A stretch of 64,000 bases of DNA from Eurosta solidaginis (Eukaryota > Arthropoda > Insecta > Diptera > Tephritidae). Location of the stretch: positions 57,632,779 through 57,696,778 of the forward strand of contig NC_090319.1 in assembly GCF_040869045.1 (NCBI RefSeq), in the 5' to 3' direction. Made by a program: the position numbers and the translations under genes. Under the pieces are notes generated by a model. The model did no database searches and was not told the origin of the DNA. It was given only the letters and a program-made list of their open reading frames with translations. Shown here piece by piece: positions 41,826 to 63,244 of this stretch (position 1 is its first letter; every line of letters begins with the position of its first letter).

Positions 41826-41897
41826 CTCTATTGTGGCCTTAAGATCGCCCTCGAGGCGCAGATAGGGAATCAGGTAGTCTGTTCGTCTTGTGATTGA

Positions 41898-42491
41898 TCA
41901 CGCTATACTACAATGGCCGTATGGTCGGCGCTCAAGCTGCCCCGAGGCACCGAGCCTGGTTGCAGTTGTTAACGCTATGTTCTTTGCTACCAGCTCTACA
42001 GGTGGAATCTGCAGAATGGCATACAGTGCAGCTGTCGGGGTTGTTTTCAGGGCTCCCGTAATGCTAAGCATTGATAGTCTGCATACCCCCTCTAATTTGT
42101 TGAGGTAGGTTGCTTTTTGTGTGGCTTTCCACCAAACAAGAACTCCATAGTATAGGATAGGGCTTACAATCGCTGTAAAAACCGAATGAGAAAGAAAGGG
42201 CGATAAGCCCCACGTACACCCCAGCATTCTTTTACATGCATAAAGTGCCGCTGAAGCCTTCTTCGCCCTCTCCTCCACGTTGAGCTTCCATGACAGCTTA
42301 CTGTCTAGGATGATTCCAAGATATTTTGTGCAAGAGTTCTCCTGTAGGGTTATCCCTCCCAACTTAGACCTGATCCAATTTGGGACCTTGTACCTCTTTG
42401 TAAACAAGACGATATCCGTCTTATCCGCGTTGACTTTCAACCCGACATTTGATGCCCAGGTATGAATATCCCGAAGCACCCGGTCCAGCAA
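41898..42491 (-). pseudogene. LINE reverse transcriptase, motif D to thumb (197 aa)
   Basis: Residues 1-30 hold WASNVGLKVNADKTDIVLF, the block after the YADD motif. Next come CTKYLGIILDSKLSWKLNVE near residue 57, then CKRMLGCTWGLSPF and YYGVLVWWKATQKA. The thumb follows (LNKLEGVCRLSMLSITGALK, TTPTAALYAILQIPPVELV). The YADD site itself lies beyond the 5' truncation. A TAG stop ends it just before RNase H, which continues in the same frame, so a single nonsense change separates them. Confidence 0.85.
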
Positions 42492-43224
42492 AGAGCTAAT
42501 CGTTGGAAGGCAGTTTCCACTTATGACAAATGCAACGTGCGTGTACTTTCATTTAAAATTGTTTATTTACTTAAAAAAATGTTTAAAAATAAATAAAAAT
42601 AAAATTGTTTATTTGCTTGAAAACATGTGTTTGCTATTAAAACAGTTATTCACGCTAATTTTTATTGTTTTTCTAAAACAATAATAAATAAATAAATTTG
42701 GCTTCTTGTTCGAAAAACAAAGCAAATAAGCTCAAGTGGTTCACAGAAAAAACATTTTTTTTTGTTAACCCAAATTCATCGAATCTCTTTCAACATAACT
42801 GTTTATTTGTTTGCAAGACATTTATATTGAACAAAAGAAACAGTATCTTTATACTTGACAATTATTTGCAATTAACTTTGTTATTATTATTAATATTATC
42901 TTTTCACTTTGTATGTTTTTCTTCAATTGAAGCTGAAATCCCTACTTCATACCCAATCTTTTCTTACCTCGCCCTTTTGTCAGAGATCGCATTCAACGGC
43001 TAAACAGAACAATTAATTCTTTTTATCAAGGAAAACAACCGATATAAAGGCATATGAAAGGGCTTACTAAGTGCAATTTATTTTTTGGTAAATTTTTTCG
43101 ACTTTCAATTGTCCCTTATTTGGGAAAAATTAGTATACAAATTTCCAAATGTTTCGTTTTTGTTATTGATATTAGCGAAAAATTACGAAATTTGCAACCG
43201 CGATGGACTCGATGAATTTCGCTT

Positions 43225-46010: not shown

Positions 46011-46340
46011 CTTTCGACGTTCAGCTTTCCTTGATATTTTTGTTCCTTGTTTTAATTTATAATTTAAAAATTATTAAATTTTTAGTTTTTCTATTTTTAT
46101 TTTTAGTTTATAATTTTTTATTTATTTATTTTTTTTTTTTAATTTCTATTGAAGCACTCCTTAAGATTTCCGGTGAAGTTATTATTCGCGTTGTCTTAAG
46201 GCCTAATTGTATATCTGAATAACACAAACAAATAATAATATTTTTGTACAAATTGGTATTTGCAAAACACACTTGATCAAACAAAATAATTTGGTTTGAA
46301 ATTGCGTTGATAAAAGTAAATCAAATAACTTTATACGGGC

Positions 46341-46348
46341 TATAAAAG
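46341..46348 (+). promoter_or_regulatory. TATA box of gene 1, with initiator
   Basis: TATAAAAG at 46341-46348 is followed by a perfect fly initiator TCAGTT at 46372-46377, placing the predicted start at A46374, 33 bp after the first T. The predicted 5' UTR is 46 nt. Gene 2 has the same boxes at the same spacing. Confidence 0.85.
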
Positions 46349-46419
46349 CACGCGTTATCTTCGATCTTAATTCAGTTATAATTGACAGCTATAACCGTCA
46401 ATTGATTAATTTTTAAAAA

Positions 46420-47412
46420 ATGAAAGCTTTAACAGTTTTAATGGTTGCCCTTGTGGCTTCCCTGTTGATAGTTGAACAGGCAGTTGCTGACGATTATTCC
46501 GATGATGTTGCCAAAGATGATGACGATGCCGCTTCTGCCGATGCTGCTCCTGCTGATGAAGCCTCTGAAATAGCTGCTCCTGCTGATGCCGCTCCTGCTG
46601 ATGAAGCTTCTGAAGGAGGCGCTTCTGATGGCGCCATTTCTGATGGGGCCGTTGGTCCTGATGCCGCTTCTGATGATACCGATTCAAATGATGCTAATGG
46701 GGAAGCTTCTGATGCAGCCGTTTCTCCTGATGCCGCTTCTGATGATACCGCTTCTGATGATACCGCTTCTAATGATGATAATGGGGAAGCTTCTAATACA
46801 GCCGTTTCTCCTGATGCCGCTGCCGATGATACCGCTTCTAATGATGATAATGGGGAAACTACTGATGCAGCCGTTTCTCCTGATGCCGCTTCTGATGATA
46901 CCGCTTCTAATGATGATAATGGGGAAGCTTCTAATGCAGCCGTTTCTCCTGATGCCGCTTCTGATGATACCGCTTCTAATGATGATAATGGGGAAGCTTC
47001 TGATGCAGCCGTTTCTCTTGATGCCGCTTCTAATGACGATAATGGGGAAGCTTCTGATGCAGCCGTTTCTCCTGATGCCGCTTCTGATGCTGCCGCTTCG
47101 GAAGGAGTCGCTTCTGATGATGCTCCTTCTGTTGCTAACGACGAAGCTATTGCTGAATCCGGTAATGTTCCAGATGCAAGTGATGACAATGCTAATACTG
47201 ATAAACGCCCCGATTCAAAGAAAGGCAACAAAAAAAGTAGACGCAATCAGCGTCGTCGCAGTCGTTCGCAAAAAAAGCGTCGAGGTGGGAGATCCCAACG
47301 TAGGCGTCGAGGTGGAAAGAACGAACGTAGGCGTCGAGGTGGAAAGAACGAACGTAGCCGCCGCCGCGGCAATAAACGCAAAGGTAGACAAAATAAATTG
47401 TCTGATTATTAA
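46420..47412 (+). CDS. Secreted acidic-repeat protein with basic tail, paralogue 1 (330 aa)
   Basis: Single-exon ORF. Residues 1-23 form a signal peptide (MKALTVLMVALVASLLIVEQ, cleavage expected after AVA), so the product enters the secretory pathway. Residues 24-80 are Asp/Ala/Ser/Pro-rich. Residues about 80-225 are about six copies of a 23-residue unit, SDDTASNDDNGEAS plus DAAVSPDAA. Residues about 260-330 are extremely basic, with RRRRGGKNER-type repeats. The protein is therefore an acidic block joined to a basic block. No catalytic domain or cysteine is evident. The start has the signal peptide, a good fly context (AAAAATG) and a 46-nt leader. The composition suggests a structural, glue, mucin-like or matrix secretion, but function and tissue are unknown. 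No gene symbol is recognised. Open frames on the other strand are repeat shadows. Confidence 0.85.
   Translation: MKALTVLMVALVASLLIVEQAVADDYSDDVAKDDDDAASADAAPADEASEIAAPADAAPADEASEGGASDGAISDGAVGPDAASDDTDSNDANGEASDAAVSPDAASDDTASDDTASNDDNGEASNTAVSPDAAADDTASNDDNGETTDAAVSPDAASDDTASNDDNGEASNAAVSPDAASDDTASNDDNGEASDAAVSLDAASNDDNGEASDAAVSPDAASDAAASEGVASDDAPSVANDEAIAESGNVPDASDDNANTDKRPDSKKGNKKSRRNQRRRSRSQKKRRGGRSQRRRRGGKNERRRRGGKNERSRRRGNKRKGRQNKLSDY
46660..47090 (+). repeat. 69-bp coding minisatellite in gene 1
   Basis: The unit GATGATACCGCTTCTAATGA...GATGCCGCTTCT (69 bp, 23 codons) is present about six times with point variants and one shortened unit near 47027-47058. Confidence 0.85.
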
Positions 47413-47416
47413 ATAG

Positions 47417-47427
47417 AATAAAATAAA
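47417..47427 (+). terminator. Polyadenylation signals of gene 1
   Basis: Two overlapping AATAAA hexamers at 47417-47422 and 47422-47427 start 5 bp after the TAA stop, implying a very short 3' UTR. A GT-rich stretch follows at 47467-47475. Confidence 0.55.
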
Positions 47428-47819
47428 TACGGTATTCACGTGACCCTGTTTATTAGCTTATCTTATTATGTGTTTATATTTTTTACACAGTTTACAAAAA
47501 CAAAATACACTGGAGACAAATACCTTTTTAACAGATAAGCTGATAATGAGGTCAAGTGGATAACCCAAATGTTTGTAAATTTTTTTCTTGCTTGCTTATT
47601 AACATTTATTTCACTGAAAGTAAGTCTGATATACGGTAAAATATACGGTACAATCTTTGAGTCTAAGTCTAAAACTTTTTGTAAGTATCTCGGAAGGTTA
47701 TGTTTCTAAATATGTAAAAAGCAATTTGTGCGTCATATGTAGCACAAATTCATCTCGATTTCAGTGGAACCAAGTTGGGTTATTCGCGAATCCGTTTTCG
47801 GAATCGTGATCCTGAACGT

Positions 47820-48265
47820 GTATTAAGAGTGTATGCTGTCGTATAGAATTACCCCAAGCTCCACTAAGACGTCAATGAAGTGCTTACTCAGATATTCTAA
47901 CGGTGCTTTGGCCAAAGCAGGGCATCTAAAAAGTACGTGTTTTATACTTTCCATATTTGCTACGGCCCTCTCTACAGCTCGGACAGCTCTTTGGGATTCG
48001 CCTGCCTGCACCGTGTACTCACATCAAACAGTAGCCCTCTAAATATCCCAATCAAAAGACGTCAGTGTAGAGGATTAAGATTAATTCGGAAGCTAATTAG
48101 GTTCTAATTTATGTTTTATGCACTCCATACATGTGGGTTCCAGTGTGTCTAGTATCATGCAGCTTTTGGAAAAGAAATGTGTTTTAGCTGTTTTAAATTG
48201 ATCTGTTCAATGCCCCTTCTCACAAGTTCGTCGACAGCAAAATTCTTCTCTGTGATGAAGTGACG
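47820..48265 (-). pseudogene. LINE RNase H end and zinc-knuckle relic in block A
   Basis: On the minus strand from 48240: AVDELVRRGIEQ (RNase H end). Further on: ANMESIKHVLFRCPALAKAP and EYLSKHFIDVLVELGVILYD, the C-terminal knuckle region. It is shared with block B (63580-64000), so it was there before the duplication. Confidence 0.65.
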
Positions 48266-48545
48266 TGAAATGTCGGTCTGTTATCTAAAATCTATCGGTT
48301 TGCTATCGAAAAGTTATCGGTTATTTGTAGAGAAGATATCGATATGTTACCAACGATATGTAATCGAAGTTACCGATCTTTTATGGGAAGTTTGTCAAAT
48401 TGTTAATGGCGTGTTATCGATCTCTTATCGAATAGTTATCGAAAAATTATCGAATTGCAAACAAAAAAATTCCTATTTGATATCAAAAAAATATCGATGT
48501 TATGGAAAATTTAACGACATATTTTCCATTCGATAATCTATATAT
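48265..48545 (-). repeat. Degenerate CGATAAC array 3
   Basis: GTTATCG-type words (TCGAAAAGTTATCGGTTA, GTGTTATCGATCTCTTATCG) recur every 12-20 bp directly after duplication block A. Confidence 0.75.
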
Positions 48546-50269
48546 AAAAAAATTTAAAAAAAACTTTTTTAAAAATAAGCGTTTATTATTGGTTAAAAAA
48601 TTAACTAAAAAGTACAAAATAAATTGACTGTAAAGAAATATATCACTTTATGAGTTCATTGTAACCTTTAGCGATAACAGAAGTATACACGGTTTTGGAT
48701 CTAGGCAACTAAAAGTGGTTTTTAAGACAATTTATGACGAGTCAAAAAATTCATTTTTAAAGATTTTTGTCAAGTAATATTCATTTTATTAACTTAAAAG
48801 TAACAAATCAGAAATTAAGATTGGTGGAACTTTGCCTTTTGTAGTGTTTAGTATCTGTTTCGCGTATTAGAGTCCAACAGTAGTCGCTCATCATGCCATC
48901 ATCCTAAAATCCTTGATATCGTCTTTCAATGTTCGCTAGATCTTGGTGTAGCCGCTCTCCTTGTTCGTCGCTCGTATCACCCAAGTTTTCGGGAAAAAAA
49001 TTGAGATGAGAATGCAGAAAATGCATCTTTAGAGACATTCTAGCTCCAATCTTTCGATAATTTTCCAACATATCGCCAATAATTTCCTTAAAATTAAGGG
49101 ATTTGTGTTTACCAAGAAAGTGGTGAACGATATTTTGAAAAGATGCCCATGCGGCTGCTTCATCGAGCGTTAAACATTTTGTAAATTTTTTATCAGCCAT
49201 TAATTTTCTAATATCAGGTCCGACAAATATTCCTTCTTTGATTTTTGCATATGATGAATTTCATATCAAAGGCTGAAAAAAACGTACATTTTGAACCCGA
49301 CACCCTCAGAATTTGATGAAATTTTGCATGGGGTTACATCTTACCCACCCAAACACAACCTTATTTTTAGAAATTGCATTTTCGAAAAATTGTGGGCGTG
49401 GGAAGGTATCGAAATATCCGAAAATATTAGAAAAATGACGATAATAGGTACTTTTAAAGTGTGATTACTACGGAATGGCTTTACCGATTTCAAAGATCTT
49501 TATACCATTAGAAAGGTATTGAAATAAGCTTTCAAAAAAATACACTGTACAAATTTTTTAGAACGCTGAAAAAAAATTTTTTTTAAATAAAATTTAAAAA
49601 GAAAAAACACTTCAAAGATCAAGCGATTTTGAAAAATAAAATTTTATTTTAGAAAGGTCTATTAATATATATAACATATCTGAAAACTAAAATGGGTTTT
49701 TTTTTTTTAAATTTATTTAAGTAAATGCATCGCTTGGTTACTTTCTCATATTTGGATATCACGCGTAAATTAATAAACCAATTTGAAAAATTTTTATACC
49801 GTTAGAAAGGTATTAAAATCACCTTTGAAAACATATACTGTAAAGATTCTATATTACAAAAATGCTTTTTTTTTTCTACATTTTTTTTTTTCAAACTGGG
49901 AAAACACTTCAAAGACCAAGCGATTTAAAAAAAATTTTTTAGAAAGGTCGTTTTAATATAAAAGCTAGAATAATGTTTTTTTATTTCTTTTAAAAAAATT
50001 TATAAGTAAAAACATCTCTTGTTAACTTTTTTTTATTTTGCTATTATTGTGTGACAAAAAAGGTACCTAGCTATACTTTGGAGGTTATACAGATACAGAT
50101 ACTATGACTAAGTATTCTAATAGATTCGAACAAGAATCGTATTATCAAATTTTTCAGACACGCACAATAAATAGACATACACTTGATAAAGTAAATTTTT
50201 TATTTTTATTTATTTAGATTTAATATACAACTTTGAGCAGCTCATACTGCTGACTTTCGGAATATTTGC

Positions 50270-50584
50270 TTACTTTTATTTATTTATATTGTCGACGAGT
50301 TCGTTGCGTTCGAGTGAATTGGTATAGCTGCTGCAAGTTGGAACTTCCTTATATTCTTGATACAATTCACCGCTAGTAAAGATTTCTTGTGCCTCTTCAC
50401 TTTCCGTTTCAGTAGAACGCTGATTATCAGCAATCTTGATAGCATCCTTAAGTTTAAAGCGACAACTTTCGCAAATACGGCAACGATGAATGTGAGACTG
50501 CTGGAAAATGCTCTTCGTTTAAGCTAATGTTTCGAAGTTGAGAGGAACATTTTCTTGATAGCTGCGCACATCTGTATTTATTAG
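50270..50584 (-). pseudogene. Unrecognised coding fragment inside the foldback element
   Basis: The minus strand reads QENVPLNFETLA, one stop, then HIHRCRICESCRFKLKDAIK, IADNQRSTETESEEAQEI and YTNSLERNELVDNIN. The run is long, polar and plausible as protein, with a Cys-x2-Cys-x2-Cys cluster. I do not recognise the family. It may be a captured or element-own gene. Confidence 0.4.
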
Positions 50585-50813
50585 TTGATTCCATATCAAT
50601 GCCTAGTAGTTTCGTTCTGGTCTGTGTCTATCCGTTGTGTTGTTTTTTATAGTCCATGGGTGCTGTGGCAGGTAATGTCAATCTATGTGTCCGTGGTAGG
50701 TAACGTTAATATGCGTGTGTGTGTGCGCGGTATTGATACGTCCAAATTGTTACCTTTTCCAAGGGTTGTTTTTGTAGGTATCTAGACATACCGCTTGTTA
50801 GCTAAGCGGTAGG

Positions 50814-51115
50814 TTAAGGTAGGTAGAAATCGGTGATTTTTGCCGTTTGGTAAATTTTTCGTTTTTGCTTGTTCATTGTTACGTGTTTGGTTGCTGTACC
50901 TTCTGGCTTGTGCTGTTTTTTGTAAACTAGTTTTAAGGGTTCAAATATTTCGTCAGAGATAGTGTTGGTTTGTTCGTTTATTATCCTGCCGTCAAATGTT
51001 TTTAACTTGTATATCTCCTTGTTCTCAAGTACATTGAGCCGCCGACCTTTTCCTTGTACGTGAAGTATTCGAGCCGTTGTTTTGATGTTAGCTGGGGTGC
51101 ACCCATCTGGAATAA
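50814..51115 (-). pseudogene. Penelope-like C-terminal fragment inside the foldback element
   Basis: Reads ARILHVQGKGRRLNVLENKE, IYKLKTFDGRIINEQTNTIS and EPLKLVYKKQ, then a Lys/Thr-rich tail ending TDFYLP and a stop at 50814-50816. It is collinear with 10276-10626. Similarity continues downstream (CTATAAA, CAGAACGAAA) to about 50615, then stops just where the other copy has its hammerhead-like motif. Confidence 0.55.
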
Positions 51116-52107
51116 AATTTTTTTACAGTGTATTTTTTCAAAAGGTGATTTTAATACCTTTCTAACGGTATAAAAATTTTTCAAATTGGTTGATTAATTT
51201 ACGCGTGATATCCAAATATGAGAAAGTAACCAAGAGATGCATTTACTTAAATAAATTAAAAAAAAAAAAAAAACCCCATTTTAGTTTTCAGATATGTTAT
51301 ATATATTAAATAGACCTTTCTAAAATAAAATTTTATTTTTCAAAATCGCTTGATCTTTGAAGTGTTTTTTCAGTTTTAAATTTTATTTAAAAAAAAATTG
51401 TTTACAGTTTATTTCAATACCTTTCTAATGGTATGAAGATGTTTGAAATCGGTAAAGCCATTCCGTAGTAATCACACTTTAAAAGTACCTATTATCGTCA
51501 TTTTTCTAATATTTTCGGATATTTCGATACCTTGCGACGCCCACAAAAAAATGCAATTTCTAAAAATGAGGTTGTTTTTGGGTGGGTAAGATGTAACCCC
51601 ATGCAAAATTTCATCAAATTCTGAGGGGGTCGGGTTCAACGCATATTGGATTTGATATGAAATTCATCATATGACAATTTAGGAAACAACTTGACTTAGT
51701 ACTAAAAAGCCGGTCCTTCACGGTTTAATGCTTTGACAAAGTTCTTTATAAGGCCTAGTTTAATGTGAAGAGGTGGCAGGAAAATGTCTTGTGGATTTAC
51801 AAGTTGTTCAGCGGAGACGTTTTGCTGTCCAGGCTCATATTGAGTACGACTTTGCCATTCTTTTCTCACATAATGATGTTCAGTTGCGCGGCTATCCCAC
51901 AAGCATAAAAAACAACAAAATTTGGCGAATCCAGATTTCAACCCAGTTAAGATACCAATTACCTGATGAAATATGAAATATGAGTGTCTGCTACTCTGAA
52001 ACCAAAGTAGTGCAGATACGCATCTTTGAGCAAATTTGTTATTATTTTGCCACTTTTTTAATCATATAACAACCACAACACTGTCTATGCATTTTTATTT
52101 GCTCTAA

Positions 52108-52108
52108 T

Positions 52109-52140
<32 letters not shown>

Positions 52141-52440
52141 ATTGGCGCTCAACCGTCTAAACGGTTATGGCCGTCCAACAAGGCGCGCCAGTCGCTCCTT
52201 CGCTCCGCCAACCGGCGCCAATTGGTCACACCATGGGGGTTTAAATCGTTTTCCACCTGGTCCTTCCAACGGAGTGGGGGCCGCCCTCTACCTCTGCTTT
52301 CATAGGCGGGTTCCGATAGAAACACTTTCTTGGCCGGAGCATCAACTCTCATTCTCATAGCATGGCCTAGCCAGCGCAATCGCTGCGTTTTAATTCGCTG
52401 GACTATGTTGATGTCTGCGTATAGCTTATTTTACAGTTAC
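52108..52440 (-). mobile_element. RTE-like LINE 3' end with (TAAG)n tail
   Basis: The minus-strand ORF (52149-52379) reads MRWLGHAMRMRVDAPAKKVF, GRGRPPLRWKDQVENDL and VTNWRRLAERRSDWRALLD, the C-terminus of RTE-type polymerases. It runs to a stop and a (TAAG)8 tail (52108-52140). Intact for 76 codons, it is better preserved than the two other RTE relics. The rest of the element is absent. Confidence 0.8.
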
Positions 52441-52645
52441 AGTTGAAATGACTTATCAAGCAGTGCCACTATTTAAAAGCTGCTATAACAGCACAATGGG
52501 GCTATCATGCGAGAACTCGGAAACTAGAATCAGTCTTAAAAAACTGAATGCACATTCGAATTCAGCATATCAAATATAGTTAAGAATCGTTCTTATCTAC
52601 TCAGATCCAAAAGTTGACCTGAATTTGTAAACTTGTGTAATTAGG

Positions 52646-52913
52646 CCATAATGTACATAATTATATATTTTTAACATTAAAACTTTACAGCTAAATTATT
52701 AAATCTTACATTTTATATCACAGTCCTAATTGTTCTAATAAAAGCGTGTTACATTGTGATAGCAAGAAAAGGAGGTCCTAAATGTTCTTAATTATACCAT
52801 CAAAATTTAACACGCTTTTTATTAGAACAATTAGGACTGTCATATAAATTGTAAGATTTACTAATTTAGCTGTAAAGTTTTAATGTTAAAAATATATAAT
52901 TATGTACAAAATG
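52646..52913. mobile_element. Palindromic MITE
   Basis: Arms of about 100 bp (GTACATAATTATATATTTTT...TAATAAAAGCGTGTTA from 52653, mirrored to GTAC at 52907) flank a loop of about 55 bp. RNA or single-stranded DNA would form one long hairpin. No ORF. Confidence 0.85.
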
Positions 52914-52914
52914 G

Positions 52915-53120
52915 ATTTTTTTTGGCGCAGCTGAGAAAGGGATAGAATGAGACGAAGATAGGGATAGATGAAGCGAAAAAGATGGAGGGTGGAGTGAACA
53001 AAAGGATTAGGAAAAAGTGAAGAAAGGGGAGGGCAGAGTTAGACGGAAAAAGCTTATTAAAATTTAGGCGGATAGACCAAATTTAGGGCAGAACAACGTC
53101 TGCCGGGTCTGCTATTGTAC
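52915..53120 (-). repeat. Pyrimidine-rich interspersed repeat, copy 2
   Basis: The reverse complement begins GCAGACCCGGCAGACGTTGT and continues into a long C/T-rich region, as at 39880-40145. Confidence 0.6.
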
Positions 53121-53199
53121 ATATAAAAATTATCAAATAAAACTTTTCGTTAATAACCCGATAAGCAATCAATAAGAAGCGTCGGAAAAAACCGATGTC

Positions 53200-53800
53200 C
53201 AAAAAGCCTCTCTTGTCAACTCGTCGACAGCACAGTTCCCAGAAAACCACTGTAACCTGGTACCCTTTTAACCTATGGGCCAGTTCGTTACCTTCGATAA
53301 AGTGTTCCTGACTTGGAGAACTTTTTTCGCTGCATGACTATAAGAAAGTTTTCTAAAAGGGTCCACAAAATTCTCGCAAAGTCGAACTCGACGTCGCTGC
53401 AGATGACAACTGCATTCAATCTAACTGCATTACAATTTGCTTGTAGGTAGACACCGATTTGTCGAAAGGAGTTTCAGTATAACGTACAGAGATTGTGAAG
53501 GTGGTCAGGGGAAGTGCACTTGATATAAGCATTGCTGCTGACCGCTGCACTATGATAATTGTGGAGGCTATGGCGTTTTTTGTCAGAGTCAGTCCCCGCT
53601 ATACCGTAGAATAAAAAACCAGGATTTTGCGACGGCGGTGTATAGCCAGAGCATTATATTTGGCTTTATACCCCACATTTTACGCACGGCTGCTTTAGAA
53701 TTATAGCTATAGCCATGACATGGATATGGGGAGGTAGTTCCACTTCTTCTTCTTGATAACCATTGCCCCATTTGGCATTAATTGTATTTAGATTCCCATT
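53200..53800 (-). pseudogene. LINE thumb and RNase H relic
   Basis: On the minus strand: KAAVRKMWGIKPNIMLWLYT (RT, near 53690-53620), QRSAAMLISSALPLTTFTI (thumb), VSTYKQIVMQLD (RNase H middle), GNELAHRLKGYQVTVVFW and CAVDELTREAFW (RNase H end). Frame breaks between pieces show decay. It resembles the relic at 47820-48265. Confidence 0.6.
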
Positions 53801-53883
53801 TGGAACAGCGCTGCCATATCTTTAAAAAAAATCACCAAAAATTGAAAGTTACTACGTAAGACCTAAAGAGTCCCTATAAGAAA

Positions 53884-54390
53884 CAAGTAAGGAACGCTAA
53901 GTTCGGGCGTAACCGAACATTACAAACTCAGCTGCCAAATTACAGCTTGCACAACTTTTGAATTGCCTTTTTTAAAAGTGGGCGGCGCCACGCCCATTGT
54001 CCAAAATTTTACTAATTTTCTATTCTGCGTCATTAGGTCAACCCACCTACCAAGTTTAATCGCTTTATCCGTCTTTGGTAATGAATTATCGCATGAAAAA
54101 GTGGGCGTGGTTATAGCCCGATTTTTTAGTTTCATATAGCGATCTGAGATGAGTTCCCAGGAACTTACATACAAAATTACATTAAGATACCTCAAAATTT
54201 ACTAAAGTTATCGTGCTTACGGACAGAAGGACGGAGGGACGGACATGGCTAAATGAATTTCTTTTTTCGCCCAGATCATTTTGATATATAGAAGTCTATA
54301 TCAATCTCGATTAGTTTATGCCGTTACGGGGTACCGTTATGCGAACAAAATTAATATACTCTGTGAGCACTGTTCAGGTGAGTATAAAAA
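53884..54390 (-). repeat. Family A interspersed repeat, copy 3
   Basis: Starts CAAGTAAGGAACGCTAAG and ends GGTGAGTATAAA. It has the same landmarks as 4811-5330 in reverse, with a deletion where the TTTCGATATCGAAAATTTCG segment is expected. Confidence 0.85.
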
Positions 54391-54394
54391 CTAG

Positions 54395-55850
54395 TATTAT
54401 TTATTGCGAAAACAGCTTCGGGTGCTCGATATACAAAAAATATAGCACAAAGCGCCCCGCTTCAAGTTTATAATGAGAAAATATACTGTGTATTGAGAAA
54501 TATAAGTTTATATTGAGAAAATGCAAATTGATAATGGAAAATAAAAATTGATTATGAGAAGCGTAACTTCTCATTGAGAAAATATAAATTTGTAGTGAGA
54601 AATATATATTGATACCGAGAAATATAAATTGATAATGAGAAATATAAATTGATAATGAGGAACTATAATTTAATAATGAGAAAGATTTTAAGAATAAATG
54701 GTTCAAGTAATTTGATCTGGAGTCGGTGAGCCAATGCTGCAATATCTCGGGGATACGATGGCAAGACAAGATAAATTATTGTCATATTTAAAGTACTCGG
54801 AAGCATTTTGAAAACATGAGGACGTATCCGGAAAACAAATTTGAGTCTCCACTTGCATATGAGCTAAAACAAAACATCTTTTTGGAATGTAGGTATGTGC
54901 GGTATTGCTCTCGCACATTTCCCTCCCGTTAAAACATTTTTTGGTGCACACACTGCACTTTCAAGGTACCACCGTATTTACTCGCATGCTCCGGACCCAC
55001 TGATTGATAGTATATATGAATGTACTTTTAGATTTTTTCTACTTCAGTTAAGTTAAATTATAACCCGTACCGTCGATTTTGCCATCTACAACAGACAATT
55101 TTAAGCTATGAACCCATAGAGGTTCTACTTAGGTAAAAACAAGTACAAATAGAAACTAATATATTTTTTTTTTCCTCATTATTAACTTACATTTTCTCAT
55201 TACCAATTTCTTTTTTCTCGATATGAAGTTCCCTTTCTCATTATCGGTTTATATTGTGACGAATATTAGCAACACTAAGGGATACTATCATCTCTAAGCC
55301 GATACTAAGCAGTGACTTGTATGCACATAAACAAATCAATCATTATGTCTTCACATATGTCCATACAAGCAGCGGAGATAAACGTACAAACACATGCATA
55401 TATCTGAGATACTCCCAAAAGTAGGCAATCATCGGTGGAAGTATCACTCACATATACACGCGCATATGGCTATGCGAGAAGCTATAATCGTGCATCTGTA
55501 GTTATAGCTGATAAGTTTATAGCTGGTAAACAAGTAGTAAATTCTAGAAATAGAAACGCCTAGAAATATGCCAACGAGCACCAGCTAAGGTACAAGGAAT
55601 CAGTTTGATTTAAGCAAGCTATCTGTTGAGAAGTAGACGCGTTATTGTGAAAGTAGTCTAATAAAGGCCATTTTGCATTATTTAATATTGGAGTTATTTG
55701 TTCAACAGTTTAGTGATTCGGACGTTAGCAGAAGGTTGCAAATAAGCGGAATTTCACAAAATTCGTTACAATATTTTCTCAATATAAACTCGCATTCTCT
55801 CATTATAAACTTTAAAGGGTGTAGTATTTTTCGTTTATTATTGTTTTAAA
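54395..55850. repeat. Inverted element with AATGAGAAATATAAATTG arms, hosting a solo LTR
   Basis: The left arm (54395-54690) contains TTCGGGTGCTCGATATAC and repeated ATAATGAGAAATATAAATTG words (about 20 bp). The right side (55170-55250 and 55775-55850) carries the complement (TTTCTCATTATAAACTT) and GTATTTTTCGTTTATTATTG. The same terminal sequences flank the hairpin in family D copy A (40690-40830). The unmatched middle (54690-55165) shows no gene. Confidence 0.6.
55255..55770 (+). mobile_element. Solo LTR of a gypsy-like retrotransposon, copy 2
   Basis: Runs TGTGACGAATATTAGCAAC ... CAAAATTCGTTACA, flanked by ATAT on both sides (55251-55254, 55771-55774). AATAAA near 55660 sets the orientation. 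The 3' ends of this and 26301-26833 share AAATAAGCGGAATTTC, so they belong to one family. Confidence 0.8.
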
Positions 55851-56097
55851 CTTATTTTGAAAATTATTTTCAACTTTTTAGTTCGATATTATTTAAAAGC
55901 GTTTTTTTTTTTTAATTTTTTTAACTATATTTAATTTTTATATTAAGGATTTGTGATCATTGAAGTTATGACTCCGCTGATTTCGGAATCCTTTCCGTGA
56001 CTGTTTGTAGATAGTTTATATATTATATGTTTATATGTATGTGATTCCATTTTATACCAAATTAAAAAAGTGTTATGAATACCCACCCACGGGTACC

Positions 56098-57063
56098 GTC
56101 TTTTCTGGTGCTACGGATATGCCTGCGTGTACTTAACTGGTTGGTTTCTCATAAAACCACGTGTTCATTTAAAATTTTTTATTTACTTAAAAACATGTGT
56201 GTGCTACTAAAACATTTATTTACGCTAATTTTTATTGTTTTTCTAACACAATAATGAACAAATAAATTAGGCTGCCTGTTCGAATAACAAAGCAAATAAA
56301 CTCAAGTGGTTCACGAGAAAAAACATTTTTTTTTTTCTCCCAAGTTCATCGAATCTCTTCCAACATAATTTTTTCTTTGTTTGCACAAAATTTCTATTCA
56401 GAAAAGGACACAGTATCTTTATACTTGACAATTATTTGCAATTAACTTTGCTAATATTATTATTATCTTGTCACTTTGTATGTTTTGCCTCAATGGAGGC
56501 AGAAAGCCCTATTTACCCCATTCTTTTCCTACCTCGCCGTTTTGTCAGAGATTTGTATACAACGGCTAAACAGAACAATTAATTCTTTTAATCAAGGAAG
56601 ACAACCGATTTAAAGGCACATGAAAAGGTCTTCTAAGTGCGATATGTTTTTGGCGAATTTTTTCGATTTTCAATCGTCCCTTATTTCGTAAAATTTAGCA
56701 TAAAAAATTCCAAGTGTTTTGTTTTTGTTATTGATATTAGCGAAGAACTACAAAATTTGCACATGGCGATGGGTTCGATGAATTTCACTTCTTCATCCGC
56801 TTGCTTTTCGGGTGCTGAGTTTTAAGCTCGAGTTCATTCATTCATTAATGGTGTTAAGGCAGATGGCTGTATTGACTCAGCCATTTGAATGCCCCGATGG
56901 ACGCTTTCTAATTTGCCTAAAATTTTTTGTCTATGTTTTTCACCCAAACTGTATGGAATATTTATAGGCGCGCTTAACAAAGAAATTTGATTTCTTTAAA
57001 TTGGAGTTCAAAACTCAACACCTGAAAAGCGAGAGTATGAATTTTTTTTATTCTTGAGTCTTT
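56098..57063 (+). repeat. Family D interspersed repeat, copy B (empty LINE site)
   Basis: Collinear with the outer parts of 40690-43560: GTGCTACGGATATGCCTGCG, then the uninterrupted TGCGTGTA site (56124-56131), TTGCAATTAACTTTG, TTGCACATGGCGATGGGTTC, and TTATTCTTGAGTCTT at the end. Confidence 0.8.
56785..56895 (-). repeat. tRNA-like segment within family D, copy B
   Basis: The minus strand reads ATGGCTGAGTCAATACAGCC (A-box-like) and AGCTTAAAACTCAGC (decayed B box), matching 33040-33150 and 43225-43335. Confidence 0.5.
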
Positions 57064-57359
57064 TCTTATTTTCTCTTTTCATTTTGGACTATAAACAAAA
57101 TTCGGAAAAATATTCACTTTCTTATCTTTGTGTTGAAATTTTTGTTCACGTCCATGGAGAGCGTTAAATCGATCGAAAAAAAATTTGATTGAGCCATGTC
57201 CGTCCGTCCGTCCGTCCGTCCGTCCGTCCGTCCGTTAACACGATAACTTGAGTAAATTTTGAGGTATCTTGACGAAATTTGGTATGTAGGTTCCTGAGCA
57301 CTCATCTCAGATCGCTATTTAAAATGAACGATATCGGACTATAACCACGCCCACTTTTT

Positions 57360-57825
57360 CGATATCGAAAATTTCGAAAAACCGAAAAAGTGCAATAATT
57401 CATTACCAAAGACAGATAAAGCGAAGAAACTTGGTGGGTGAGTTGAGCTTATGACGAAGAATAGAAAATTAGTAAAATTGTGGACAATGGGCGTGGCACC
57501 GCCCACTTTTAAAAGAAGGTAATTTAAAACTTTTGCAAGCTGCAATTTGGCAGTCGTTGAAAATATCATGATGAAATTTGGCAGGAACGTTACGATATCG
57601 AAAATTTCGAAAAACCGAAAAAGTGCAATAATTCATTACCAAAGACAGATAAAGCGATGAAACTTGGTGGGTGAGTTGAGCTTATGACGAAGAATAGAAA
57701 ATTAGTAAAATTGTGGACAATGGGCGTGGCACCGCCCACTTTTAAAAGAAGGTAATTTAAAACTTTTGCAAGCTGCAATTTGGCAGTCGTTGAAAATATC
57801 ATGATGAAATTTGGCAGGAACGTTA
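57360..57825 (+). repeat. 233-bp near-identical tandem duplication
   Basis: CGATATCGAAAATTTCGAAA...GGCAGGAACGTTA occurs at 57360-57592 and 57593-57825. By eye the copies differ at one base (GCGAAGAAAC against GCGATGAAAC). Confidence 0.9.
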
Positions 57826-58599
57826 CTCCTATTACTATATGTACCCTTAATAAAAATTAGCAAAATCGGAGAAGGACCACGCCAACTTTTAAACAATTTT
57901 TTTTTTAAGTAAAATTTTAACAAAAAATTTAATATCTTTACAGTATATAAGTAAATTATGTCAACATTCAACTCTTGTACTGATATGGTGCTACAAAATA
58001 AAAAAAATAAAGAAAATTTCAAAATGGGCTTGGCTCCGCCCTTTTTCATTTAATTTGTCTAGGATACTTTTAATGCCATAAGTCGAACACAAATATTCCA
58101 ATCCTTTTGAAATTTGGTAGGGGCATAGATTTTATGACGTTAACTGTTTTCTGTGAAAATGAGCGAAATCGGTTGAAGCCACGCCCAGTTTTTATACACA
58201 GTCGTCCGTCTGTCCTTCCGCATGGCCGTTAACACGATTACTTGAGCAAAAATCGACATATCTTTACTGAACTTAGTTCACGTACTTATCTGAACTCAAT
58301 TTATCACGAAATCCGAATATGACCACGCCCACTTTTTCGATATCGAAAATTACGAAAAATGAAAGCAATGCCATAATTCTATACCAAATACGAAAAAAGG
58401 GATGAAACATGGTAATTGGATTGGTTTATTGACGCGAAATATAACTTTAGAAAAAACTTTGTAAAATGGTTGTGACACCTTCCATATTAAGTAGAAGAAA
58501 ATGAAAAAGTTCTGCAGGGCGAAATAAAACACCCTTGAAATCTTGGCAGGTATTACATATATAAATAAATTATCGGTATCCAACAGATAATGTTCTAGG

Positions 58600-59110
58600 T
58601 CACCCTGGTCCAGATTTTGGTCGATATCTGGAAAACGACTTCACATATACAACTACCACCACTCCCTTTTAAAACTCTCATTAATACCTTTAATTTGATA
58701 CCAATATCGTACAAACACATTCTAGAGTCACCCCTGGTCCACCTTTATGGCGATATCTCGAAAAGGTGTCCACCTATAGAAATAAGCCCCACGCCCTTTT
58801 AAAATACTCATTAACACCTTTCATTTGATACCCATATCGTACAAACAAAGTCTAGAGTCACCCCTGGTCCACCTTTATGGCGATATTTCTAACCGGCGTT
58901 CACCTATATAACTAAGGCCCACTCCCTTTTAAAATACTCACTAACACCTTTCGTTTGATACCCATATTGTACAAACGCATTCTAGAGTCACCCCTGGTCC
59001 ACCTTTATGGCGATATCTCGAAAAGGCGACCACCTATAGAACTATGGCCCACTCCCTCATAAAATACTCTTTAATACCTTTCGTTTGATACACATGTCAT
59101 ACAAACACAT
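58600..59110 (+). repeat. 130-bp tandem units in family A
   Basis: CCCCTGGTCCACCTTTATGG recurs at 58731, 58861 and 58991, with a divergent first unit near 58600. Confidence 0.9.
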
Positions 59111-59482
59111 TCCAGGGTTTCCCTCGGTTCATTTTCCTACATGGTTGTTTTCCCTTATGTTGTCACCATAGCTCTCAACTGAGTTTGTAATATTCGCTTA
59201 CACCCGAACTTAACCTTCCTTACTTGTTAATATTTAGTTTTTCTATTTTTCTTTTTAGTTTATAAATTTTTAATTTTATTTTAATTTCTATTGACACAGT
59301 CCTTAAGATTTCCGGTGAAGTTATTATTCGCATTGTCTTAAGGCCTAATTGTATATCTGAATAACACAAACAAATAATAATAAATTTGTACAAATTGGTG
59401 TTTGCAAAACACACTTGATTAAACAAAATAATTTCGTTAGAAATTGCATTGATAATAGTAAAACAAATAACTTCATACGAGC

Positions 59483-59490
59483 TATAAAAG
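59483..59490 (+). promoter_or_regulatory. TATA box of gene 2, with initiator
   Basis: TATAAAAG at 59483-59490 and initiator TCAGTT at 59514-59519 predict transcription from A59516, 46 nt before the ATG, identical in layout to gene 1. Confidence 0.85.
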
Positions 59491-59561
59491 GACGCGTTAT
59501 TTTCGATTTTAATTCAGTTATAATTGACAGCTATAAGCGTAAATTGCTTAATTTAGAAAAA

Positions 59562-62500
59562 ATGAAAGCGTTAACAATTTTAATGGTTGCCCTTGTGGCT
59601 TCCCTGTTGATAGTTGAACAGGCAGTTGCTGACGATTATTCCGATGATGGTGCCAAAGATGATGACGATGCTGCCGATGACGATGCCGCTTCTGCTGATG
59701 CCGCTCCTGCCGATGAAGCTTCTGAAGGAGCCGTTTCTGATGAAACCGCTTCCGATGGCGAAGCTTCCAATGGCGCCACTCCTGATGCAGCCGCTTCTCC
59801 TGATGCCAATTCTAATGATACCGATTCTAATGATGCTAATGGGGAAGCTTCTGATGCAGCCGCTTCTCCTGATGCCGATTCTGATGATACGGATTCTAAT
59901 GATGCTAATGGGGAAGCTTCTGATGCAGCCGCTTCTGATACCGCTTCTGATGATACCGATGATAATGATGCTAATGGGAAAGCTTCTGATGCAGCCGTTT
60001 CTCCTGATGCCGGCTCTGATGATACCGCTTCTAATGATGATAATGGAGAAGCTTCTGATGACACCGCTTCTAATGATGATAATGGGGAAGCTTCTGATGC
60101 AGCCGTTGCTCCTGATGCCCCTTCTGATGATACCGCTTCTAATGATGATAATGGGGAAGCTTCTGATGCAGCCGTTTCTCCTGATGCCCCTTCTGATGAT
60201 ACCGCTTCTAATGATGATAATGGGGAAGCTTCTGATGCAGCCGTTTCTCTTGATGACGCTTCTGATGGTACCCCTTCTAATGATGGTAATGGGGAAGCTT
60301 CTGATGCAGCCGTTTCTCCTGATGCCGCTTCTGATGATACCGCTTCTAATGATGATAATGGGGAAGCTTCTGATGCAGCCGTTTCTCCTGATGCCGCTTC
60401 TGATGATACCGCTTCTAATGATGATAATGGAGAAGCTTCTGATGACACCGCTTCTAATGATGATAATGGGGAAGCTTCTGATGCAGCCGTTTCTCCTGAT
60501 GCCCCTTCTGATGATACCGCTTCTAATGATGATAATGGGGAAGCTTCTGATGCAGCCGTTTCTCCTGATGCCCCTTCTGATGATACCGCTTCTAATGATG
60601 ATAATGGGGAAGCTTCTGATGCAGCCGTTTCTCCTGATGCCACTTCTGATGATAATGGGAAAGCTTCTGATGCAGCCGTTTCTCCTGATGCCGCTTCTGA
60701 TGATACCGCTCCTAATGATGATAATGGGGCCGTTTCTGATGCAGCCGCTTCTCCCGATGCCGCCTCTGATGATACCGCTTCTAATGATGATAATGGGGAA
60801 GCTTCTGATGCAGCCGTTTCTCCTGATGCCCCTTCTGATGATACCGCTTCTAATGATGATAATGGGGAAGCTTCTGATGCAGCCGTTTCTCCTGATGCCG
60901 CTTCTGATGATACCGCTTCTAATGATGATAATGGAGAAGCTTCTGATACAGCCGTTTCTCCTGATGCCCCTTCTGATGATACCGCTTCTAATGATGATAA
61001 TGGAGAAGCTTCTGATGCAGCCGTTTCTCCTGATGCCACTTCTGATGATAATGGGAAAGCTTCTGATGCAGCCGTTTCTCCTGATGCCGCTTCTGATGAT
61101 ACCGCTCCTAGTGATGATAATGGGGAAGATTCTGATACAGATGCTTCTCCTGATGCCGCTTCTGATGATACCGCTTCAAATGATGATAATGGGGAAGCTT
61201 CTGATGCAGCCGTTTCTCCTGATGACGCTTCTGATGATACCACTTCTAATGATGATAATGGGGAAGCTTCTGATGCAGCCGTTTCTCCTGATGCCGCTTC
61301 TGATGACACCGCTTCTAATGATGATAATGGGGAAGCTTCTGAAGCAGCCGTTTCTCCCGATGCCGCTTCTGATGATACCACTTCTAATGATGATAATGGG
61401 GCCGTTTCTGATGCAGCCGTTTCTCCCGATGCCGCTTCTGATGATGATAATGGAGAAGCTTCTGATGCAGCCGTTTCTCCTGATGCCGCTTCTGATGATA
61501 CCGCTTCTAATGATGATAATGGAGAAGCTTCTGATGCAGCCGTTTCTCCTGATGCCGCTTCTGATGATACCGCTTCTAATGATGATAATGGAGAAGCTTC
61601 TGATGCAGCCGTTTCTCCTGATGCCCCTTCTGATGATACCGCTTCTAATGATGATAATGGAGAAGCTTCTGATGCAGCCGTTTCTCCTGATGCCACTTCT
61701 GATGATAATGGGAAAGCTTCTGATGCAGCCGTTTCTCCTGATGCCGCTTCTGATGATACCGCTCCTAATGATGATAATGGGGCCGTTTCTGATGCAGCCG
61801 CTTCTCCCGATGCCGCCTCTGATGATACCGCTTCTAATGATGATAATGGGGAAGCTTCTGATGCAGCCGTTTCTCCTGATGCCCCTTCTGATGATACCGC
61901 TTCTAATGATGATAATGGGGAAGCTTCTGATGCAGCCGTTTCTCCTGATGCCCCTTCTGATGATACCGCTTCTAATGATGATAATGGAGAAGCTTCTGAT
62001 GCAGCCGTTTCTCCTGATGCCACTTCTGATGATAATGGGAAAGCTTCTGATGCAGCCGTTTCTCCTGATGCCGCTTCTGATGATACCGCTCCTAGTGATG
62101 ATAATGAGGAAGATTCTGATACAGATGCTTCTCCTGATGCCGCTTCTGATGATACCGCTTCAAATGATGATAATGGGGAAGCTTCTGATGCAGCCGTTTC
62201 TCCTGATGACGCTTCTGATGATACCACTTCTAATGATGATAATGGGGAAGCTTCTGATGCAGCCGTTTCTTCTGATGCCGCTTCTGATGACACCGCTTCT
62301 AATGATGATAATGGGGAAGCTTCTGAAGCAGCCGTTTCTCCCGATGCCGCTTCTGATGATACCGCTTCTAATGATGATAATGGGGCCGTTTCTGATGCAG
62401 CCGTTTCTCCCGATGCCGCTTCTGATGATGATAATGGAGAAGCTTCTGATGCAGCCGTTTCTCCTGATGCCGCTTCTGATGATACCGCTCCTAATGATGA

Positions 62501-63014
62501 TAATGGGGCCGGTTCTGATGCAGCCGCTTCTCCCGATGCCGCCTCTGATGATACCGCTTCTAATGATGATAATGGGGCGGTTTCTGATGCCGCCGTTTCT
62601 CCCGATGCCGCTTCTGATGATACCGCTTCTGATGGTGCCGCTTCTGAAGGAGACGCTTCTGATGATGCTCCTTCTGTAGCTAACAACGAAGCTATTGCTG
62701 AATCCGCATCAGCCAACGGTAATGTTCCAGCTGAAAGCAATGACAATGCTAATAATGATAAACGTCCCGGAGCTAAGAAAGGCAACAAAAGACGTAGACG
62801 GAATAAGCGTCGTCGTAGACGTTCACAAAAAAAGCGTCGAGGTGGGAGATACCAACGTAGGCGTCGAGGTAGGAGGAACGAACGTAGGCGCCGCCGCCGT
62901 GGCAATAAACGCAAAGCTAGACGAAATCCAATATCTGATTTTTTAAATAGTTTACCAAAACCAAATATACTGGAGACAAATAAATTTTTATTAGATAATT
63001 TTATAAGGTGGTGA
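59562..63014 (+). CDS. Secreted acidic-repeat protein with basic tail, paralogue 2 (1150 aa)
   Basis: Intact single-exon frame. The ATG at 59562 is chosen, not the upstream in-frame ATG at 59415, because 59415 lies before the predicted start site and TATA box, and 59562 begins the signal peptide shared with gene 1 (MKALTILMVALVASLLIVEQ, cleaved after AVA). Residues about 24-90 are acidic. Residues about 90-1020 hold some 40 copies of the 23-residue unit (DDTASNDDNGEAS, DAAVSPDAAS). Residues about 1065-1125 are Arg/Lys-rich (RRRRNKRRRRRSQKKRRGGR). The last 24 residues (LNSLPKPNILETNKFLLDN...) have no counterpart in gene 1, whose frame stops after SDY. No cysteine and no enzyme domain is seen. 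An extracellular structural or adhesive role is an inference only. Confidence 0.85.
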   Translation: MKALTILMVALVASLLIVEQAVADDYSDDGAKDDDDAADDDAASADAAPADEASEGAVSDETASDGEASNGATPDAAASPDANSNDTDSNDANGEASDAAASPDADSDDTDSNDANGEASDAAASDTASDDTDDNDANGKASDAAVSPDAGSDDTASNDDNGEASDDTASNDDNGEASDAAVAPDAPSDDTASNDDNGEASDAAVSPDAPSDDTASNDDNGEASDAAVSLDDASDGTPSNDGNGEASDAAVSPDAASDDTASNDDNGEASDAAVSPDAASDDTASNDDNGEASDDTASNDDNGEASDAAVSPDAPSDDTASNDDNGEASDAAVSPDAPSDDTASNDDNGEASDAAVSPDATSDDNGKASDAAVSPDAASDDTAPNDDNGAVSDAAASPDAASDDTASNDDNGEASDAAVSPDAPSDDTASNDDNGEASDAAVSPDAASDDTASNDDNGEASDTAVSPDAPSDDTASNDDNGEASDAAVSPDATSDDNGKASDAAVSPDAASDDTAPSDDNGEDSDTDASPDAASDDTASNDDNGEASDAAVSPDDASDDTTSNDDNGEASDAAVSPDAASDDTASNDDNGEASEAAVSPDAASDDTTSNDDNGAVSDAAVSPDAASDDDNGEASDAAVSPDAASDDTASNDDNGEASDAAVSPDAASDDTASNDDNGEASDAAVSPDAPSDDTASNDDNGEASDAAVSPDATSDDNGKASDAAVSPDAASDDTAPNDDNGAVSDAAASPDAASDDTASNDDNGEASDAAVSPDAPSDDTASNDDNGEASDAAVSPDAPSDDTASNDDNGEASDAAVSPDATSDDNGKASDAAVSPDAASDDTAPSDDNEEDSDTDASPDAASDDTASNDDNGEASDAAVSPDDASDDTTSNDDNGEASDAAVSSDAASDDTASNDDNGEASEAAVSPDAASDDTASNDDNGAVSDAAVSPDAASDDDNGEASDAAVSPDAASDDTAPNDDNGAGSDAAASPDAASDDTASNDDNGAVSDAAVSPDAASDDTASDGAASEGDASDDAPSVANNEAIAESASANGNVPAESNDNANNDKRPGAKKGNKRRRRNKRRRRRSQKKRRGGRYQRRRRGRRNERRRRRRGNKRKARRNPISDFLNSLPKPNILETNKFLLDNFIRW
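59800..62640 (+). repeat. 69-bp coding minisatellite with higher-order structure in gene 2
   Basis: About 40 units of 69 bp. A marker variant (GCCACTTCTGATGATAATGG) occurs at about 60641, 61037, 61694 and 62021, and a second (CCTAGTGATGATAATG) near 61107 and 62091. Marker distances are 1053 and 984 bp, differing by exactly one unit. This indicates a duplicated block of about 1 kb that then gained or lost one unit. Confidence 0.9.
62979..62984 (+). terminator. AATAAA inside the gene 2 coding extension
   Basis: An AATAAA hexamer lies 28 bp before the stop codon at 63012-63014; a weaker ATTAAA is at 63057-63062. If the first were used, cleavage 10-30 nt downstream would fall at or just before the stop. 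Confidence 0.35.
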
Positions 63015-63244
63015 AGTGAATAATCCAAATGTTTGTAGATATTTTTCTTTGTGATTATTAAATATTGTGTACTTATTAATGTTTATGTCGCTGAAAGTAA
63101 GTTTGATATACAGTAAATATACGGTACAATCTTTGAGTCTAAGTCTAAAACTTTTTGTAAGTATCTCGGAAGATTATGTTCTTTAAATTTGTAAAAAGCA
63201 ATTTGCCCGCCATATGTAGCGCAAATTCATCTTGAATTCAGTGG

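Follow-up and report, generated by a model that had tools for sequence, protein, structure and literature searches.

Two described systems come closest to the locus reported here. The accessible portion of one report describes the small secreted salivary gland protein (SSSGP/SSGP) genes of the Hessian fly, Mayetiola destructor, as clustered genes in which the promoter, the 5' untranslated region (5'UTR) and the signal peptide are conserved while the mature region is super-diversified, a pattern for which Chen and colleagues use the term unusual conservation (PMC2955719). The 'new glue' (ng) genes of Drosophila, as described in the available part of their account, are intronless and occur in multi-copy clusters with rapid turnover; they encode a signal peptide, an Ala-rich low-complexity middle and an Arg/Lys-rich C-terminus, and ng-1 to ng-3 are specific to the larval salivary gland (PMC10835880). 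We analyzed a stretch of 64,000 nucleotides of Eurosta solidaginis DNA (contig NC_090319.1, positions 57,632,779 to 57,696,778 of the forward strand; hereafter the window), which carries two genes, A and B, whose products are well supported by sequence features as secreted proteins and as members of a Eurosta family of about a hundred loci. Eurosta solidaginis is a tephritid of the tribe Dithrycini and a well-known galling insect.

The initial annotation had described positions 46420 to 63014 as a pair of secreted proteins combining an acidic block, built on an expanding 23-residue repeat, with a basic tail. Both open reading frames (ORFs) are present at these ends, each with a predicted signal peptide, an Asp/Ala/Ser/Asn block and an Arg/Lys tail, while the span itself covers two genes rather than one feature:

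46420..47412, + strand: gene A, an intronless coding sequence of 330 amino acids
59562..63014, + strand: gene B, an intronless coding sequence of 1150 amino acids
46420..46488, + strand: signal peptide of A, with cleavage predicted between AVA and DD by the (-3,-1) rule, applied by inspection, and a helix over residues 2-23 in the structural model
59562..59630, + strand: signal peptide of B, called from the sequence
46489..47199, + strand: acidic Ala/Asp/Ser/Asn block of A, made of 23-residue repeats, net charge -68
47200..47409, + strand: Arg/Lys-rich tail of A, net charge +31
59631..62756, + strand: acidic block of B, with 43 repeat anchors, net charge -309
62757..63011, + strand: basic tail of B, net charge +35, its last ~25 residues corresponding to sequence 3' of A's stop codon

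Both copies share this plan, from a 23-residue signal peptide through the acidic block to the Arg/Lys tail. The signal peptides, called by sequence inspection, read MKALT[V/I]LMVALVASLLIVEQAVA and differ at one of 23 residues. The acidic block holds 69 Asp and Glu and a single Lys or Arg among 237 amino acids in A, and 315 and 6, respectively, among 1042 in B, whereas Lys and Arg account for 36 of the 70 tail residues in A and 40 of 85 in B; the description of a polyanion fused to a polycation on one chain is accurate for both. Expansion of the repeat is borne out by the 6 unit anchors found in A against the 43 in B. Near its end the frame of B diverges from that of A and reads past the position of A's stop, adding about 25 residues that may be part of the predicted protein.

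To place these genes in the genome, of which 1,907,799,307 bases were searched (279,015,510 of them in the sequence C4), we used both the whole of A and its N-terminus. At an E-value of 1e-3, whole A matched only A and B. Its first 40 amino acids returned A, B and six weak matches (E 0.09 to 5.5); a stretch of 0.38 Mb of C4 holds five of these and C5 the sixth, and all are ORFs with Met at residue 1. Two of these, L011 (170 amino acids) and L016 (214), are acidic and then Arg-rich; L013 (190) has Pro/Ala repeats followed by an Arg-rich part, L014 (315) Gly/Ser repeats followed by an Arg/Gln-rich part, L015 (107) an Arg/Gln-rich end, and L012 on C5 (98) a Lys-rich end. Over their first 72 nucleotides A and L011 are identical at 64. 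A search with L014 led to copies on C1 and C3 and to further ones on C4, some of them broken.

Nine sequences, A among them, supplied a degenerate 35-nucleotide signal-peptide pattern that, with up to 3 mismatches allowed, gave 101 matches genome-wide, compared with 0 for the reversed pattern; among the 100 matches listed, 61 are on C4, 55 of them in 225.9-245.9 Mb. A further pattern, fitted to the most frequent form, gave 81 matches, 4 of them outside the 100 listed, and the family counts, which hang on these two patterns, are lower bounds. Thirty of the 101 pattern matches were read, A and B included, and ORFs of at least 90 amino acids were found in 23. The acidic-basic design occurs in four genes (A, B, L011 and L016) on two chromosomes. 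Among 26 ORFs of at least 90 amino acids, 22 carry a net positive charge over the second half of the mature part, with B scored negative in this count because its tail is short relative to the acid block. Most members read have a compact promoter, TATAAAAG, followed about 30 bp on by the initiator CAGTTAT, and a 5'UTR of about 50 nucleotides.

This upstream module was captured in a family profile covering positions -90 to +66 (promoter, 5'UTR and signal peptide) and built from 31 loci, with A, B, L011 and L016 left out by design. The profile matched both genes, the signal-peptide half of each match being partly non-independent because most training loci came from the pattern drawn partly from A. 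The matches and the promoter elements are as follows:

46382..46481, + strand: family profile match in A, covering 38 nucleotides of 5'UTR and the signal peptide, with the TATA box outside (E 6e-13, about 134 kb searched)
59483..59623, + strand: family profile match in B, covering TATA box, 5'UTR and signal peptide (E 4e-14)
46341..46346, + strand: TATA box of A (TATAAA, at -79), from the sequence
46372..46377, + strand: initiator of A (TCAGTT, at -48, 31 bp past the TATA box), from the sequence
59483..59488, + strand: TATA box of B (TATAAA, at -79), from the sequence
59514..59519, + strand: initiator of B (TCAGTT, at -48), from the sequence

The next match in the window after these two had an E-value of 0.9, and the best in a Markov control 0.26.

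The family as a whole offers several further observations. About a hundred loci with the family signal peptide, mostly of the MRALTT type, lie in C4:225.9-245.9 Mb and on C1, C2, C3 and C5, and the mature parts among the 30 loci read are Gly/Lys/Asp-, Pro/Ser/Arg- or Arg/Gln-rich. L013 (C4:233582870-233582947 and upstream, - strand) contains (PAASPPAAEP)n repeats resembling plant extensin, with a Pfam Extensin_1 match of E 3.6e-5 that falls far below the cut-off; this likeness likely stems from composition bias, and mimicry of the plant cell wall is a possibility. L018, L022, L023, L028, L029, L032 and L045-L047 carry stops or frame changes or lack an in-frame tail, and the family therefore also decays.

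No named family had been recognised for the pair, which holds for Pfam, where the best match of A, DUF3708 (E 0.031), is below the cut-off, B has none, and eight family relatives have none above the curated cut-off; the pair nonetheless is part of a family with roughly a hundred loci in its own genome. It had also been proposed to search with the non-repeat ends. While the N-terminal genome search gave the relatives described above, residues 1-45 of A found no match at E 10 among 138 candidates in the protein database. Whole A found none at E 1e-3 among the 7994 candidates scored, which were those with the most shared words, so that repeats may crowd out relatives. A control with a retroelement ORF showed that proteins of Drosophila, Anastrepha and Eurosta are represented in the database, and these results together suggest that A itself is absent from its entries.

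The upstream region and signal peptide of the family are conserved, and the mature parts are super-diversified. Across 16 complete MRALTT-type genes (MRAL-type only, with ORFs of at least 90 amino acids, picked by signal peptide and not by upstream sequence), DNA identity averages 0.854 over the 90 nucleotides upstream (shuffled 0.611) and 0.932 in the signal peptide, compared with 0.566 in the mature region (shuffled 0.506) and 0.674 in the 150 nucleotides downstream (shuffled 0.61). At the protein level, identity in these genes is 0.891 for the signal peptide versus 0.304 for the mature part. In a mixed set of ten members that includes A and B, amino acid identity is 0.571 in the signal peptide (shuffled 0.181) and 0.183 in the mature part (shuffled 0.125), and the downstream 150 nucleotides stand at 0.606 versus 0.604 in shuffles. 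In most members read the mature sequence changes freely, partly through tandem repeat growth.

Charge is distributed differently in the two proteins. In A its patterning is extreme, with a sequence charge decoration (SCD) of -15.2 versus +19.2 +- 1.5 in 200 shuffles, and association of tail and acid block within or between chains is plausible. In B the SCD of 512, versus 595 in shuffles, is still strongly positive and kappa is not raised; with a tail (+35) far smaller in charge than its acid block (-309), B is unable to balance its own charge and would depend on calcium or on a polycation supplied from outside. The charge pattern of A suits the self-association suggested in the initial annotation. 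A single-sequence AlphaFold model of A has a mean predicted local distance difference test score (pLDDT) of 50; the signal peptide is modelled as helical and so, with modest confidence, is the tail, and this prediction lends weak support to disorder elsewhere in A.

The same annotation had pointed to Ser next to Asp as possible phosphorylation sites and to a parallel with underwater adhesives and biomineral proteins. Relative to block shuffles, CK2 motifs ([ST]xx[DE]) are depleted (6 vs 13.1 expected in A, 47 vs 67.5 in B), as are FAM20C motifs (SxE; 0 vs 2.0 and 1 vs 7.2), and phosphorylation by either kinase is disfavored. SxD (21 vs 8.4 in A, 120 vs 45.0 in B) and [ST]P (5 vs 2.2 in A, 40 vs 12.8 in B) are nonetheless above block shuffles as components of the repeat, so that phosphorylation of A and B may be considered possible and is not favored by their motifs. 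Serine sites for secretory kinases, which would be expected in a phosphoprotein adhesive or biomineral protein, are thus not enriched, and this analysis gave no positive evidence for such a role. A combination of acidic activation domain and nuclear tail was also considered and is unlikely, with one aromatic residue among the 1042 of the acid block of B.

The explanation that we prefer, with a rough probability of 0.48, is that A and B form a repeat-expanded branch of a large Eurosta secreted family that diversifies fast and whose members would be candidate effectors of feeding or galling. Synthesis would take place in the larval salivary glands, and release at the contact between larva and goldenrod. 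Pairing of the Arg-rich tail with acidic blocks of its own and of other chains would, in A, B, L011 and L016 (the acidic branch), maintain the protein in soluble form or condensed within secretory granules; once released, the tail could bind a competing polyanion, for example pectin or nucleic acid. Binding would then fall to the tail, with the acid block acting as a solubilising and neutralising spacer that can lengthen freely. Since the fly is a gall former whose larval feeding induces the gall, as stated in the accessible part of a report on Eurosta (PMC10253641), a role as effector seems to us likelier than one as glue.

Upstream motifs bear on the site of synthesis. Fork head-like sites number 60 in 14 upstream regions, versus 23.8 in shuffles, and are also dense relative to bins of the window; after 35 upstream regions were reduced to 17 by similarity, their density was 3.76 per 500 bp near the genes versus 1.65 far upstream (p 0.0013). 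The strong enrichment that these numbers suggest was mostly removed by a reversed-motif control, and Fork head sites are weak evidence for the site of synthesis. The strict TGTTTRY form alone separates from its reversed control (p 0.007 vs 0.22), which lends modest support.

Several points weigh against the preferred explanation. The proposed salivary site of synthesis is its weakest link, and the reversed Fork head motif nearly equals the Fork head-like sites (3.59 vs 1.94, p 0.0033). The link of the family to galling is putative, and fruit flies at large may share it. Seven of the 30 loci read have ORFs of fewer than 90 amino acids, and an eighth, L050, shares its start base with a copy that has two TGA stops. 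Signal-peptide identity in the 16 genes was partly selected by ascertainment, although the upstream region was no selection criterion; in the mixed set of ten, promoter (0.646 vs 0.589) and 5'UTR (0.663 vs 0.597) exceed shuffles by a small margin. B is far off charge balance and would stay a polyanion, and the non-acidic branches show that the acid block is not needed by the family.

A broader version of the same idea is possible, if doubtful. The hundred-odd loci would constitute a superfamily of gall effectors in Tephritidae that manipulates goldenrod and bears an SSGP-like signature, having arisen independently of the SSGPs of gall midges and the BICYCLE genes of aphids. A and B would be its polyampholyte branch: unequal exchange would lengthen their acidic repeats but leave the Arg-rich tail in place, and a cationic plant-binding tail would be delivered in neutralised form.

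A structural salivary secretion is the next alternative and, in our judgment, an unlikely one: A and B would be tephritid counterparts of ng proteins that glue, lubricate or line the puparium and do not act on the plant. Their architecture matches that of ng save for the Thr stretches and the length, and the larval salivary expression of ng-1 to ng-3 given in the available account (PMC10835880) would fit such a role, but a run of three Thr and a length below 180 amino acids, both stated for ng, are lacking in A and B, and the mature parts of the family are more variable than expected for a bulk glue. The Eurosta larva, moreover, pupates within its gall, which makes an anchoring glue needless.

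Secretion from another tissue, such as chorion or reproductive accessory gland, is improbable. Repeat-rich, fast-evolving secreted families are common there also, the sequence fixes no tissue, and in the upstream regions GATA and EcR half sites occur at background frequency; the closest architectural matches found, ng and SSSGP, are nevertheless larval salivary proteins. Host defence, in which the Arg-rich tail would act as a cationic antimicrobial peptide neutralised by the acidic block as a propiece, has likewise a low probability. The tails are strongly cationic, and B has 9 furin-type motifs versus 4.3 in shuffles, but A has 3 versus 3.8 expected, several family members are without an acidic block, and NF-kB sites number 0 versus 0.5 expected in 14 upstream regions and 1 in 35, a test of little power.

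Whether the frames are coding was judged from several lines of evidence. Over the arrays of A and B, a second forward frame and two reverse frames are also long (up to 1148 amino acids, on the reverse strand of B), so that openness alone is weak evidence for a gene; the third forward frame is interrupted by 78 stops in A and by 355 in B. On the strand opposite B, 59636-63082 comprises 1148 open codons and is Ala/Ser/Glu-rich; this frame is probably a by-product of the repeat. Within the repeats the codon-position test is uninformative: there is no synonymous excess in 34 full units (23 distinct), with 8 of 34 distinct base variants synonymous versus 24.6% expected. The signal peptides of A and its nearest relative L011 likewise give no synonymous excess (proportions of synonymous and non-synonymous differences, pS 0.064 and pN 0.073). 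The unique ends of A and B differ by 0.151 at synonymous (dS) and 0.071 at non-synonymous sites (dN), values whose significance was not tested, and signal peptide and tail share one frame in A and in B. Among 25 distinct family signal peptides (identical ones collapsed; L039-L041, with an in-frame deletion, excluded), entropy by codon position is 0.587/0.397/0.861, the third position being the most variable, with pS 0.398 and pN 0.208. The coding frame is therefore supported by the unique ends, the TATA-initiator pair, the codon pattern of the family signal peptides and the family-wide module of 5'UTR and signal peptide. An untranslated or decaying array whose ORFs are accidents of a stop-free repeat is very improbable: the long alternative frames, the lack of synonymous excess in repeats and between A and L011, and the broken relatives would agree with it, but not the single frame joining signal peptide and tail in both copies behind a TATA-initiator module, the codon-position pattern or the excess of dS over dN at the ends.

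A and B are copies of one tandem-duplicated unit on the same strand, with homology starting at about 46077 and about 59229. Two further features of A belong here:

46077..48455, + strand: duplicated unit with gene A, about 2.4 kb, its partner running from about 59229 to beyond the window end
47417..47422, + strand: AATAAA past the stop of A, from the sequence

The 3' flank of A (47413-47500) contains a GT...polypyrimidine...AG stretch that is not present in B; it may be a 3'UTR intron, or B may have a deletion. Among the other signal-like ORFs scanned, a TATA-initiator pair was found only at 57702-58049 (- strand), a 115-aa ORF with a hydrophobic start, the pair-like elements at -147/-113, and an overlap with a 233-bp tandem duplication. 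Pfam searches of ten other window ORFs gave two retroelement matches below curated cut-offs and none for the remaining eight; spliced genes were not sought. At 41085-42548 (- strand) lie fragments of reverse transcriptase, RNase H and zf-RVT with Pfam scores below the cut-off, the reverse transcriptase fragment being 55-58% identical to proteins of Drosophila sulfurigaster (best) and Anastrepha ludens (second). At 22445-24102 lies a diverged tandem array with about 87 copies of a 19-bp unit, and further minisatellites lie at 19943-20712, 32265-34247 and 58593-59112. Rfam and tRNA scans gave no match that identifies A or B.

The available part of a 2023 paper states that, lacking an annotated genome, the secreted effector proteins of Eurosta had not been examined (PMC10253641), and a limited look at the open-licence literature found no titles on such Eurosta genes. 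With roughly a hundred secreted candidates, clustered and defined by their promoter, the way in which Eurosta makes its gall can be put to a direct test. A and B also provide a natural test of charge-block polyampholytes, because these sister genes differ in the length of the acid block, 237 amino acids in A and 1042 in B.

Beyond the ng and SSSGP leads, the literature on sialomes, silks, glue and coacervates served as background only. The basic-tail salivary proteins of ticks and blood-feeding flies resemble A and B in being secreted with a basic tail, which is thought to bind charged phospholipids; their tails, however, are Lys-rich rather than Arg-rich and belong to an anticoagulant context, and the accessible text does not mention a long acidic repeat (PMC2853526). 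The salivary glue protein Sgs5 of Drosophila kikkawai shares with A and B an acidic disordered insert (127 amino acids, 60% acidic) but, as far as the available description goes, this consists mostly of Pro-Glu/Asp pair repeats, and an Arg-rich tail is not described (PMC6352337). With ng, A and B have in common the lack of introns, membership of multi-copy clusters with rapid turnover, the signal peptide, the Ala-rich interior and the Arg/Lys-rich C-terminus given in the accessible account; they differ in length (330 and 1150 amino acids, against fewer than 180), in the absence from either translation of TTT, where ng proteins have at least three consecutive Thr (PMC10835880), and in being acidic. 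The likeness considered here is one of architecture.

The SSSGP/SSGP genes of the Hessian fly, a gall-forming dipteran, are compared with the Eurosta family by evolutionary pattern, not by sequence. Both are clustered multigene families with a conserved 5' end and a super-diversified mature part (PMC2955719, PMC2990301, from the portions available), and the SSSGP combination of conserved promoter, 5'UTR and signal peptide with a diversified mature region is found in the Eurosta family. According to these same portions, most salivary transcripts on the SSSGP side encode 50-200 amino acids, an intron lies in or at the signal-peptide region in most groups while one group has none, and the 3'UTR is conserved; in the Eurosta family the downstream region may be conserved weakly. 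We assign A and B to neither ng nor SSSGP; by analogy, they may work like them.

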